Of a stretch of 64,000 bases of DNA, positions 48,791-54,778 are shown in pieces. Origin of the DNA: a virus; IMG/VR virus record IMGVR_UViG_3300045284_000214, positions 1-64,000 of that record, one strand, 5' to 3'. Both the position numbers and the translations under genes were made by a program. Under the pieces are notes generated by a model, which was not told the origin of the DNA, did no database searches, and saw only the letters and a program-made list of their open reading frames with translations. Positions within the stretch are counted from its first letter, which is position 1. Every line of letters begins with the position of its first letter.

Positions 48791-49558
48791 ATGGCAAAGA
48801 AGAATGCAGAGACGATAGTCGAACAGGTTGCGAGCGACACTCCGGTCAAGCTGGGAGCTATCCTGTCGAAGAAGGCTCAGTTCCAACGCTTCGGCATTTG
48901 GCTGGTTGGCGATACACCGCTGATTACGCATGCGTGGTCGGAGAAGGCCCGCAGAGAGATGCTCTCCAAGCAGGTCAAGGCGACCAAGGGTGGCAAGGAA
49001 GCCCGCGATCCCCATGCTGATTTCGTTTCGTCGCTCTACGAGATGGGGGACGGCACCTATGGCTTCCCGGCGACTGGCATCAAGAACTGCATCCTGAGTG
49101 CCGCCCACAAGGACAAGGGCATCCCCAGGACGGCTGTTATGTCGGCGCTGTGGATCGACGCCGATATGGTCCGGACACGCCCAGCGCTAGCTGGAGCGGT
49201 CTGTGACATGCCTTTGGTGCGGATCACGGGCAGCAAGCCGGAAATGCGGGAGGACATGGTCAAGATCGGCTCTGGCTTGAACAAAGTTGCCAATCTGGCT
49301 TACCGGGCTCAATTCACGGTTTGGGCGATGCGAATCACTGGCCGGTTTAATTCATCGATTATCACGCCGGAAGCGCTGGCTTTCCTGATCCAGGAAGCTG
49401 GTTTGGCTTCTGGGCTAGGGGAATGGCGGAACGAGCGCAAGGGTATGTTTGGCTCCTGCCATTTGGCCGATCCAGAGGAAGAGGCCGCATGGGATGCCTA
49501 TGAGTCTGGCAAAGGCCAGCTCCCGGTTCCCGAGAATTATCGCATGGCAGCGGAGTAA
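48791..49558 (+). CDS. phage protein of unknown role, possible RAMP-like fold, 255 aa
   Basis: ATG at 48791 is chosen over an in-frame ATG at 48743 that would run through the leader region. Motifs: FGIWLVGDTPLITHAWSEKA (about residue 33) and GTYGFPATGIKNCILSAAHK (about 83), a Gly-then-Thr-Pro-Leu opening and a small-residue loop before a helix that loosely recall RAMP proteins (Cas7/Cas5 type). This is only a pattern resemblance. The gene is paired with 49564-50067 and precedes the G-rich array. Not recognised with confidence. Confidence 0.45.
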   Translation: MAKKNAETIVEQVASDTPVKLGAILSKKAQFQRFGIWLVGDTPLITHAWSEKARREMLSKQVKATKGGKEARDPHADFVSSLYEMGDGTYGFPATGIKNCILSAAHKDKGIPRTAVMSALWIDADMVRTRPALAGAVCDMPLVRITGSKPEMREDMVKIGSGLNKVANLAYRAQFTVWAMRITGRFNSSIITPEALAFLIQEAGLASGLGEWRNERKGMFGSCHLADPEEEAAWDAYESGKGQLPVPENYRMAAE

Positions 49559-49563
49559 TAATC

Positions 49564-50067
49564 ATGGTCAAATACATCTTCAGGGATGGCCCACTTACCA
49601 TCCCGAATGCCAAGAAAGCCAGTGCTCAGAAGATCGGAACTGCGCTGGCTCAGATTGCGGAACAACAGAAAGGGAGGCTAACGCCTCCAGCCGTTGTTGA
49701 AGCCGCCCGCAGCAATCGGCATCCCCTGCATCAATACTTTGAATGGGACAACGATGTAGCAGCTGAAGCCTATAGGCTGGATCAGGCCCGGACACTGATT
49801 CGGTCGGTCGCAGTTGTTGATGACAACGAGGACTCCAAACCCGCCTACCTGTCGATTTCCGACAAGGCAGGAACCAGCTATCGGGCCGTCGAGGAAGTGC
49901 TTGACAGTGCTGAATTGCAAAGCGCTGTTCTGGCTGCGGCAGAGCGCGATCTAATTGCGTTCGAGAAGCGATACCGCCAGCTTCAGGACATCTGTGAAAT
50001 CATTAGCAGCGCTAGGAGCAAGATTGCTGCTCGTCGCAACAAACATGAAAGCAGACTCGCAAGTTGA
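49564..50067 (+). CDS. unknown partner protein, 167 aa
   Basis: Follows the previous gene by 5 bases. N-terminal basic helix (IPNAKKASAQKIGTALAQIA), then LTPPAVVEAARSNRHPLHQYFEWDN (key VVEAAR...HPLHQYFEW) which I have seen in paired phage genes, then Glu/Gln-rich helices. Likely acts with the upstream protein. Function unknown. It ends just before the non-coding G-rich region. Confidence 0.5.
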   Translation: MVKYIFRDGPLTIPNAKKASAQKIGTALAQIAEQQKGRLTPPAVVEAARSNRHPLHQYFEWDNDVAAEAYRLDQARTLIRSVAVVDDNEDSKPAYLSISDKAGTSYRAVEEVLDSAELQSAVLAAAERDLIAFEKRYRQLQDICEIISSARSKIAARRNKHESRLAS

Positions 50068-50094: not shown

Positions 50095-50650
50095 CTAGTC
50101 AGAGACAGTCGATGCGCAGAGCGTTCGTGTAAGTTAAGGCAGGCTTGGAGTGGCAGTTCCGAGAGATGCAGGCCAAGGCCTGGAACGGCAAGTTAAGGCA
50201 GGCGTGGTGAAGATTGGAACTGAGGTCGGAGCAGGCAAGGAGCAGCAAGTCCTGTACAGTCACGGACAGGCAATGCAAGGCCGGATAGGACAGGCTTGTA
50301 TAATCACGGCCCGTAATGTTCGGGGGTTGTCTGGATTGGTATGGCAGGCAGGGCTGGTCCCGTAAGTGATCGGTTGTGTGCGTTATCGCGTGGCAAAGCC
50401 GCGTTGGTCAAGGCAGGAGGAGAGTGGCATGGACCGTAATGGTTGGTTTTGGCAGGGCGCGTTGCGTCCTGTAGCGGTTCTGTAAGGCAGGATGTGTGTG
50501 GAAGTGCTGAGGCGTGGAAGTTCATATCTGTGCCCATTAAGGCAGGAGCGGTGTGGATAGTCGCGGCCCGTTCGGGTCTGGCAATGCCCAGTTAGGCAAG
50601 TCAGGAATGGAGTGGCAGAGATTGTCTGAGACGGTTTCTGAACTGTAAAG
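50095..50650 (+). repeat. G-rich non-coding region with degenerate TTAAGGCAGG repeats
   Basis: A 0.55-kb stretch without a convincing gene. In 50101-50640 my hand count gives G 38%, C 18%, A 21%, T 22%, an extreme GC skew. The word (G)TTAAGGCAGG or close variants occurs at 50133, 50192, 50407 (gTCAAGGCAGG), 50482 (gTAAGGCAGG) and 50536 (aTTAAGGCAGG), each near AGTGGCA/GGAG-type words. Short hairpins also recur: AGGCCAAGGCCT at 50169-50180, and GCGTGGCAAAGCCGCG. It could be a structured RNA, a replication origin, or a decayed tandem array. Confidence 0.55.
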
Positions 50651-50807
50651 AGAAGAGTGGCTTGGTGAGGCTGGCTTGGCGTTGTTGAGCGCGGTTCTTC
50701 TGGTTTCGGCCCCGTCATGTGGGAAACGGCCCGGCGCTGCTTTGCTGGCAAACAAAAATAGTGGCGGGAGAAATCCCGCTGCTAACTTTTCTGTTGGGGA
50801 GGGTTCA

Positions 50808-52268
50808 TTGAGAGAACTGAGGCAAGATCAGATCGAGTTATTGGTCGAGATAGAGGAGGCTATCGAGTCTGGGTTGCGGCGGTTAATGATCCAGGCTCCA
50901 TGCGGGTTTGGGAAAACACTGGTAGCTTCGACATTGCTCAAGAAATATTGCGATGAAGGCAAGCGGGTCATGTTTGTGGTCCCGGCTATCAGCTTAATCA
51001 GCCAGACAATTGAAGTATTCAACAGCGAGGGATTAGAAGATATTGGCGTAATGCAAGCTTATCACATGATGACTAACTGGGACATGCCAATACAAATTTG
51101 TAGTATTCAAACACTTTCAAGAAGAAATCTTCCAAAGTCCGATATCGTTATTATAGATGAAGCTCATATTTGGTTTAAATTCTTCGAAAAATGGATGCTG
51201 GACCCTGAATGGAAAGATATTCCATTTGTTGGACTTTCGGCAACGCCATGGGCGAAAGGTTTGGGCGCTTGGTACCAAAAACTGATCATAGGCAGCACCA
51301 TTGGCGAAGCTATAGACCAGGGCATTTTGTCTCGTTTCAAAGTATTCGCGCCCGCCCATCCAGATTTAACAAAGGTTAGGACTCTCGCTGGCGATTTTCA
51401 TGAAGGCGACCTCGAAAAGGTAATGAACCAAAAACGCCTTGTCGCGGATATTGTTAGCACATGGCTTTTACGAGCTAAAGACTTGCCAACACTTTGTTTT
51501 TGCGTGAACCGCGCTCACGCGAAACAGGTTCAAGAGCAATTTATTGCCGCTGGGATAAATGCTGGCTACCAAGATTCCTTTACTAGGGATGACGAGCGAA
51601 CAGCCATCAAGATCAAGTTCCACAACGGCGAAATGCCTGTCGTTTGCTCGGTAAATACAATGATTTTGGGCATCGACTGGAAAATCAAGTGTTTGATTTG
51701 GGCGTGCCCGACAAAATCCGAGATGAAGTACGTTCAGGGCACTGGTCGAGGGTTGAGAACAGATGAAGGCAAGGACGAGTGCCTTATCCTCGATCATTCG
51801 GACAACACATTGCGCCTCGGATTCGTGGATTCCATCCATCACGCAGAATTGAACACGGGAAAAAAACCTTTAGCTGCCTCGGTCAGTCCGATCCGCCTTC
51901 CCAAGGAATGCCCGCAATGTACTTTCCTGAAACCGCCCAAGACGCTGGAGTGCCCGAACTGCGGCTTTGCCACCAAGCCGGTGGTCGATGTGGTGGTCGA
52001 GAAGGGCGAACTAGTTGAGTTTACCAAGAGGGGAAAGCCAAAGGATTTGTTCGAGAAACCAGATACTTACGCCGGTCTTCTGTGGTACGGACAGCAGAAG
52101 AATTACAAGGCTGGCTGGGCATTCCATAAATATTTTGAGCTTTTTCAAGAATATCCTCAAGGACTTGGCGTGGTGCCGAAGCCACCAAGCACGGAATTGG
52201 CAAAATGGATCAAATCACGAACCATAGCTTGGGCACACTCCAAATACCGGACTCCGCTTCGCCCATAA
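50808..52268 (+). CDS. DEAH-box superfamily II helicase
   Basis: TTG at 50808 with GGGGAGGG just upstream is the likely start; the frame stays open upstream to 50676 but that part lies in the G-rich region. Walker A PCGFGKT (31-37), DEAH (117-120), SAT (144-146), a helicase C-terminal domain with QGTGRGLR near 314, and CPQC/CPNC zinc cysteines near 370-390. SSL2-type helicases unwind DNA in phage replication or repair. The first half has GC down to 32-45% in sampled lines, much lower than the neighbours, suggesting horizontal acquisition. Confidence 0.88.
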   Translation: MRELRQDQIELLVEIEEAIESGLRRLMIQAPCGFGKTLVASTLLKKYCDEGKRVMFVVPAISLISQTIEVFNSEGLEDIGVMQAYHMMTNWDMPIQICSIQTLSRRNLPKSDIVIIDEAHIWFKFFEKWMLDPEWKDIPFVGLSATPWAKGLGAWYQKLIIGSTIGEAIDQGILSRFKVFAPAHPDLTKVRTLAGDFHEGDLEKVMNQKRLVADIVSTWLLRAKDLPTLCFCVNRAHAKQVQEQFIAAGINAGYQDSFTRDDERTAIKIKFHNGEMPVVCSVNTMILGIDWKIKCLIWACPTKSEMKYVQGTGRGLRTDEGKDECLILDHSDNTLRLGFVDSIHHAELNTGKKPLAASVSPIRLPKECPQCTFLKPPKTLECPNCGFATKPVVDVVVEKGELVEFTKRGKPKDLFEKPDTYAGLLWYGQQKNYKAGWAFHKYFELFQEYPQGLGVVPKPPSTELAKWIKSRTIAWAHSKYRTPLRP

Positions 52269-53176: not shown

Positions 53177-54778
53177 ATGGGTGATGGAAGCGGCGGCGGA
53201 GATGGTGGCGGTGGCGGCTCGGACAGCAGTTCTGACAGCGCCAACGATACCGGTGGCTTTACCGGTGTAGCTCCCGGCGATCCCAGCGCCGTAAGCGGCT
53301 TCAGTGTAGGCACAGGCTTTGGCGATAGCTCGCAGTCAGGATCTTCACTGAGCGGCGAAGGGTTCGGCCCGGATGCGGATGCTGCTGCCGCAGCCGCTGC
53401 GGTTACTGGTCTTGCCACCGGTCTTGGTAGCGTGAGCGATGCCAATATCGGGACAGGCATCGGGAGTCTTGGGTTTGGAACCTCCAGCCCAAGCACTCCA
53501 GCCCCCGGTGAAGGCGCTGGCTTTGGCGCACCCGGCAATCCGGGCATTGGGGCGCAGACAGATGCAGGCTTCGGTATAGCTGGCATTGGCCCGACTGCTG
53601 CTGGGCAGGGCTTGGGCCCGGCTGACAGCACCACTAACGATACTGCCAACCTCGGGCAGTCCATTGGCGCGGCGCTTAGTCAAAACAGCGACCCCAGCAC
53701 TTCGGTTAGTCCATCCCTTGCGGCTGCTCTTGCTTCATTAGGCCAGACGAGTGCACCTGCGGCAGCGGCTGCGCCCGGCGCCGCACCGCCAGGAATAGCG
53801 GGAATCACCGGCGTAGCCAGCCCTGATCCTACATCACAAGCTGCACAGCCGGATGCTGTTAGCGCGGTCACGGGAGTTGCGCCTCCGGGCCTGAGCAACA
53901 GTACGCCATCCTCTCCGTTTGGCACGATTGCAGCGCCACCTACCAGCATGGACGCAGAGCTTGGCATAGATGTCCCCGGCATCGATCAGGACATGGCGGT
54001 CAATGCGCCACCCCCTCCGGGCGTAACAATGGGCTTCCAAGGTTTCAGCCCCAGCCCTACCGGCGTAGTGGGAGTAACCTCGCCAACGTCGATTTCGGAC
54101 CAAGCTTTGGCTAATACCGTCGCGACCAAAGGCGATGCTGAGGCGATGCAGGATGCAAAGGATCAAGCTGAGGCTAACGCCATAGCTGGGAAACTAGGCT
54201 TGCTAGGCCCCAACGCAATCACCACTAACCAAGGCCCGGTATCGGCGCTTCCTGCTTCGGTTTCGTCACCGCCGTCCGCGCCCAGCGCTACACTGGGAAT
54301 TGGGGCTGACGCCGGATTCGGAGCACCGGGACAGCCGTCCATTGGCACCAGTCCGCCAAGCCCAGCTGCCATTGCCGCTGGATATGGTGCATTAGCTGAG
54401 GGGATGTCCACTCCCGCCGCAACTCCGGCAACCTTGGGCATCGCGTCAGACGCCATAGGAGCACCCAACCAGCCAAGCCTAGCCGCACAACAGAGCATCA
54501 ACGACGCTAATATTTCCCTTGCTGCGCAAAACAATCAGCCAAACATTGCTCCAGCCCCAGCGCTCTCGCAGATCGCAACTGCGCCCCCTGCGCCAGCCGT
54601 TACCTCACCTGCGCCTGCATTAGGTGTGCCTGCCGCTACCCCCGCCTTATCGCCTGTCGCAGCTCCTGTCGCAGAGCAATCCATTACCAATCCTGATGGT
54701 ACGCTGAACTTTGCGGCTCTGATGGCGAACTATCCCGGACTGCGTCAGCAGCTTACCAACATACTCCAAACATCATGA
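53177..54778 (+). CDS. Gly/Ala/Pro/Ser-rich low-complexity protein, 533 aa
   Basis: After MGDGSGGGDGGGGGSDSSSD (first 20 residues), repeats such as GAGFGAPGNPGIGAQTDAGF and LGIGADAGFGAPGQPSIGTS occur, plus Pro/Thr linkers. No catalytic motif or membrane helix; likely disordered. Similar Gly/Ala-rich composition to the internal virion protein at 22225, hence possibly a structural or phase-forming protein. Extremely biased sequence could also be an adhesin. AGGAGC precedes the ATG. No family recognised. Confidence 0.5.
   Translation: MGDGSGGGDGGGGGSDSSSDSANDTGGFTGVAPGDPSAVSGFSVGTGFGDSSQSGSSLSGEGFGPDADAAAAAAAVTGLATGLGSVSDANIGTGIGSLGFGTSSPSTPAPGEGAGFGAPGNPGIGAQTDAGFGIAGIGPTAAGQGLGPADSTTNDTANLGQSIGAALSQNSDPSTSVSPSLAAALASLGQTSAPAAAAAPGAAPPGIAGITGVASPDPTSQAAQPDAVSAVTGVAPPGLSNSTPSSPFGTIAAPPTSMDAELGIDVPGIDQDMAVNAPPPPGVTMGFQGFSPSPTGVVGVTSPTSISDQALANTVATKGDAEAMQDAKDQAEANAIAGKLGLLGPNAITTNQGPVSALPASVSSPPSAPSATLGIGADAGFGAPGQPSIGTSPPSPAAIAAGYGALAEGMSTPAATPATLGIASDAIGAPNQPSLAAQQSINDANISLAAQNNQPNIAPAPALSQIATAPPAPAVTSPAPALGVPAATPALSPVAAPVAEQSITNPDGTLNFAALMANYPGLRQQLTNILQTS

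Follow-up and report, generated by a model that had tools for sequence, protein, structure and literature searches.

What is encoded by a G-rich stretch without recognisable genes that lies between a gene pair of unknown function and a DEAH helicase gene in a phage? This question was raised by positions 50095–50650 of a 64,000-nucleotide stretch of DNA (the window), which is nearly all of the 65,061-base virus record IMGVR_UViG_3300045284_000214. An earlier interpretation made from the letters alone (the sequence-only reading) had suggested an array of small RNA hairpins, a replication origin or a decayed tandem repeat, and had linked it to no named family. A named family, VIPR (Viral Interference Programmable Repeat), does match, and the stretch is almost certainly the array of guide RNAs (vrRNAs) of such a system. 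VIPR was described as CRISPR-related and phage-borne in a 2026 preprint that is not peer reviewed (PMC13142463). As set out there, the system has three components: the RAMP protein Vipr, a vap gene and vrRNAs, each with 9–16 YNNGG repeats in which the NN pairs recognise DNA with one base skipped per step. Seven types are published, array architecture differs between them, and VIPR is presented as a possible forerunner of CRISPR (PMC13142463).

Composition and period of the G-rich stretch

A recount of 50095–50650 gave 37.8% G and 18.3% C, which bore out the base skew described by the sequence-only reading, and neither strand contained a convincing gene, as it had also said. The GC skew of approximately +0.3 was the strongest in the window and unique within it. 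The word AAGGCAGG occurred 11 times on the + strand of the whole window and its reverse complement 0 times; the copies listed earlier were present, each one base later than had been given (50134, 50193, 50408, 50483 and 50537). The repeat unit itself had been misread, as the actual unit is a pentamer and the TTAAGGCAGG words taken for it are unit ends, located at CAGG separators.

Local Fourier analysis of G in the window array revealed a period-5 power of 1.21 (z = +19.9), which none of 500 dinucleotide shuffles reached. The controls, two coding stretches flanking the array, gave z = −1.2 and +2.4. The signal was detected from about 50120 and continued beyond 50650, placing the array between approximately 50115 and about 50740. 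The recurrent hairpins were weak, with RNA folding against 20 shuffles giving z = −2.2. The suggestion of a structured RNA holds in so far as this is a regulatory non-coding RNA array, and fails for the small hairpins, since the order is that of a pentamer lattice. Searches of the stretch revealed no Rfam match, no tRNA and no DNA similarity to phages.

Structure of the array

A simple Viterbi parse showed the array to be composed of units of mostly 9–14 (Y)NNGG pentamers, each closed by CAGG or a close variant (Table 1). In the window array, 71% of pentamers had G at position 4 and 69% at position 5, compared to 47% and 52% respectively in a shuffled control read by the same parser. Both scaffold Gs occurred together in only 44% of the pentamers, and positions 2–3 (NN) were near-uniform in composition. 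As each CAGG moves the pentamer register by one base, the distances from one CAGG to the next were mostly 4 modulo 5; this is supporting but non-independent evidence because the parser favours such spacing.

Table 1. Positions in the window of the array, its units and the neighbouring features
Feature	Position	Strand	Basis
vipr, 255 aa, phrog_4652, predicted RAMP/Cas7-like guide-RNA-binding protein	48791..49558	+	Profile match, fold model
vap (accessory), 167 aa, phrog_15946	49564..50067	+	Adjoins vipr in almost every relative
vrRNA array, (Y)NNGG pentamer units with CAGG between them	50115..50740	+	Period 5, extent, decoding
Unit G1: TT GT AG CG GA AG AA CT AC AA AA + CAGG	50144..50202	+	Parse
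Unit G2, short and irregular	50203..50235	+	Parse
Unit G3	50236..50284	+	Parse
Unit G4, probable target zinc ribbon of an IS1595-type transposase	50285..50348	+	18/20 in 3 genomes
Unit G5, putative target ImmA/IrrE peptidase motif RFTLAHELGHL	50349..50417	+	21/22
Unit G6	50418..50491	+	Parse
Unit G7, ambiguous register	50492..50546	+	Parse
Unit G8, putative target Tle1-like/DUF2235 hydrolase motif GFSRGAYTA	50547..50605	+	18/18, 15 contigs
Unit G9, putative target IS1-family transposase motif TSFVERQNLTM	50606..50674	+	18/18 in 10 contigs; 22/22 in several
Unit G10, last of array	50675..50740	+	Parse
Intrinsic terminator, 11 pairs then T-rich	50759..50784	+	Between array and helicase

Genes adjacent to the array

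The array was found directly 3′ of the vipr–vap pair, and both genes were intact. The phrog_4652-family profile matched PDB entry 36pp_D, 'SUSP1 Vipr protein' (E = 9.6e-15), and a single-sequence phmmer comparison of the first gene's protein with SUSP1 Vipr gave E = 0.001. The same profile picked out vipr in the SUSP1 genome, beside the period-5 vrRNAs of that phage. The AlphaFold model of the window Vipr (pLDDT 82) was nearest to Csm3/Cas7 chains (Foldseek E about 7e-5, probability 1.00, TM 0.35–0.45). The locus was assigned to VIPR because of the profile match to 36pp, the recovery of SUSP1 vipr with its period-5 vrRNAs and the Csm3/Cas7-like predicted fold.

Vap was modelled with confidence (pLDDT 93.7); its fold matches were weak and winged-helix-like (best E = 0.13), and as these are the only matches a DNA-binding role for Vap is a guess. 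The phrog_15946 profile had no hit in the 45-kb portion of SUSP1 containing vipr and vap of that phage, and Pfam, NCBIfam and PADLOC returned nothing above threshold for either window gene. The start of the DEAH helicase gene was taken as TTG at 50808, and the strong terminator separates it from the array. Further downstream, after the primase gene, a 533-aa open frame rich in Gly, Ala, Ser and Pro (53177–54778) was without a match in PHROG and Pfam.

Guide decoding and putative targets

The units were decoded by the published 1-nt skip rule, unadjusted. Four window guides (G1, G6, G8 and G9; 18 bases each) and one order-reversed G8 control were scanned for exact matches in IMG/VR. G8 was matched at 18/18 in 15 contigs, all at the GFSRGAYTA motif of Tle1-like/DUF2235 proteins, which Pfam confirmed for three. 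G9 was matched at 18/18 in 10 contigs, all in one transposase frame with the motif [T]SFVERQNLTM, and the two of these that were tested belonged to the IS1 family by Pfam and NCBIfam. This exact scan gave no target for G1 and G6 and 0 matches for the order-reversed control.

The 22-base form of G9 matched four of 189 Hyphomicrobiales genomes, two of them exactly (22/22), and in this set G5 matched one ImmA/IrrE gene at RFTLAHELGHL (21/22). The number expected by chance was ~0.006 for each of these guides, and backward-pattern controls gave 0. G4 aligned at 18/20 (two mismatches) in three genomes, where 2.5 were expected by chance. As all three (3/3) lay in one motif, the IS1595-type zinc ribbon STRIG[VT]YKCY, and the backward control gave 0, an IS1595-type transposase was considered the probable target of G4 despite the chance-level count. 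The window guides tested showed no good match to their own phage.

In every target case (G4, G5, G8 and G9) the skipped base was the wobble base, so that guides of this kind can cover a whole protein family. Part of this apparent family-wide coverage may be artefactual, because a conserved motif is found more readily than a unique site. All four targeted guides (window 50285–50670) were antisense to the target gene, which with n = 4 may be chance; in this orientation the vrRNA could also pair with mRNA.

When 292 distinct guides were scanned locally against the collected loci, 17 guides had matches compared to 13 order-shuffled ones, barely above the control. Most of the 16/18 local matches are attributed to chance, since order-shuffled guides gave similar numbers, and the case for the putative targets is based on the strong individual matches and not on this all-guide scan. 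A skip-3 excess was also seen in the local scan, perhaps from array sequence left unmasked. The vipr gene of relative L015 contained a 16/18 match to G6, which was rejected because it is out of frame and overlaps the constant end of the unit.

Relatives of the locus

A search of IMG/VR with the first protein revealed 47 loci, and the second gene was adjacent in nearly all of them. Among the ~45 IMG/VR loci carrying the gene pair, nearly all had a G-skewed array directly after the pair, and the DEAH helicase was found in 0 of about 45 within the fetched flank. The arrays of the relatives read as NNGGC pentamers in most loci, and period 5 was present in 9/9 relatives tested (z = 17–41). A relaxed GG pattern like that of the window was also found in L010, L013 and L057, which are relatives with separate arrays. 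Of these, L057 is a bacterial relative, located in Corticibacterium sp. UT-5YL-CI-8 (Phyllobacteriaceae); G5 had no match in the Corticibacterium genome.

One guide of a relative aligned with the vipr genes of other relatives. Read with the 1-nt skip, the guide at L010:6281-6330, the first after CAGG, matched the L021 vipr gene at 18/18 (AHKDKGVAR codons) and the vipr genes of L057, L018, L015, L014 and L012 at 17/18. The vipr gene of L010 itself had three mismatches to this guide.

Alternative explanations

A replication origin for this module, either as an R-loop-prone G-rich leader or as iterons bound by an initiator, would suit the position of the array just upstream of the helicase and primase genes and its strong GC skew, and some phage gaps upstream of the helicase are also G-rich. 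This is nevertheless highly improbable, since it is the vipr–vap pair that the array accompanies in ~45 loci, none of them with the helicase in the fetched flank. The terminator lies between array and helicase, and the variable bases encode targets. Additionally, in Pseudomonas phage PS-1 (L006:3388-4000) and a Klebsiella phage (L007:3640-3920), the non-coding, G-rich gaps that precede a helicase gene of this family had no strong period 5 or comparable five-base order, which indicates that the helicase is not the partner of the array. A decayed tandem repeat, or low-complexity sequence without function, is less credible still. The consensus is relaxed and looks degenerate by eye, but the NN positions were near-uniform while the GG positions were held, and decoding of the NN pairs led to coherent targets, with exact in-frame guide matches to conserved protein motifs where controls gave 0.

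Decay could instead have affected a genuine VIPR array in the window phage, leaving some guides readable on a scaffold too loose to be bound by Vipr. The retention of GG in only 44% of pentamers is in keeping with this, as are the short, irregular unit G2 and the ambiguous unit G7. We consider it unlikely, as neither vipr nor vap is disrupted, long and exact matches to targets persist, and the relaxed pattern, being shared by L010, L013 and L057, looks like a trait of the clade.

Comparison with known VIPR and CRISPR systems

The best comparison for the window locus, read as a VIPR system, was that of Escherichia phage SUSP1 (type II; PDB 36pp). Both have a Vipr of the RAMP lineage and a minimal phage locus of vipr and vap, with long flanking intergenic sequence in the window virus record. 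Both have GGY alternating with hypervariable NN, in the window with a relaxed consensus and with mostly 9–14 pentamers per unit, within the published 9–16 repeats per vrRNA. In both, targeting follows a 1-nt skip at wobble positions (bioinformatically, for the window) and is directed at rival mobile elements, sometimes at rival vipr genes. SUSP1 units, however, have a leader and a shared structured tail, whereas the window array is continuous and its tail-less units abut through CAGG tetramers. This lack of the invariable structured 3′ tail of SUSP1-type vrRNAs counts against type II and not against VIPR, since architecture varies by type according to PMC13142463. The window scaffold also keeps GG in only ~44% of pentamers, with GT, AG and TG frequent, against the published GGY; the window Vipr has 255 aa compared to 202 aa for the SUSP1 chain; the window vap has no detectable homology to the SUSP1 neighbour gene; and the predicted window targets are transposase and Tle1-like genes.

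Class 1 CRISPR RAMPs (Csm3/Cas7 of types III and VII) resemble the window Vipr in predicted fold, and share a regular interruption of guide–target pairing. They differ in that TM-scores were only 0.35–0.45 and that the window guide is gapped every third base, with a pentamer as its unit. The array contained no CRISPR-type direct repeats, which sets it apart from class 1 CRISPR-Cas, and no Cas match was found among the neighbouring genes scanned.

The locus is an ordinary VIPR in kind; relative to the main text of the preprint, the novelty lies in its putative targets, in the relaxed motif and in an array that has CAGG punctuation but no tails. More tentatively, and with considerable doubt, the clade might be a distinct form of VIPR, defined by the tail-less CAGG array, the loosened GG and its own vap, with guides selected for codon positions 1–2 of the most conserved motifs of whole protein families (transposases, ImmA/IrrE, Tle1-like). 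If so, a single guide would read a family nearly as amino acids and would not be limited to one rival.

Proposed mode of action and implications

The phage would transcribe vipr, vap and the array together as a single operon transcript ending at 50784. As we infer from PMC13142463, Vipr subunits would coat the vrRNA, taking the GG of the scaffold as their landmark; the two N bases of each pentamer would pair with DNA in two-base steps, one base being skipped. A guide would start directly after CAGG and use 9–11 dinucleotides, with the ends of the RNA presumptive, and the last one or two pentamers before the next CAGG would form a semi-constant end. The guides would be aimed at genes of rival mobile elements, namely those for transposases (IS1 and, probably, IS1595), for a peptidase of the ImmA/IrrE type and for a Tle1-like lipase. 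The complex would most likely block transcription of the target, as is suggested by PMC13142463.

The published VIPR code is backed here by independent sequence, in that the unchanged skip rule turned a G-rich stretch into exact mobile-element addresses. The list of putative VIPR targets gains transposases and a Tle1-like lipase, and the array shows that a scaffold much more relaxed than GGY is possible. The CAGG punctuation aids in finding arrays and in cutting them into guides.

Other scaffolds and other carriers were also observed. The array beside a distant vipr at L033:6290-6660 had mostly GGA in its scaffold where others had GGC or GGY. Both genes were present in 33 phage records (H21–H86; Mycobacterium and Gordonia phages and Cyanophage Cy-LDV1), in which they are annotated as hypothetical protein.
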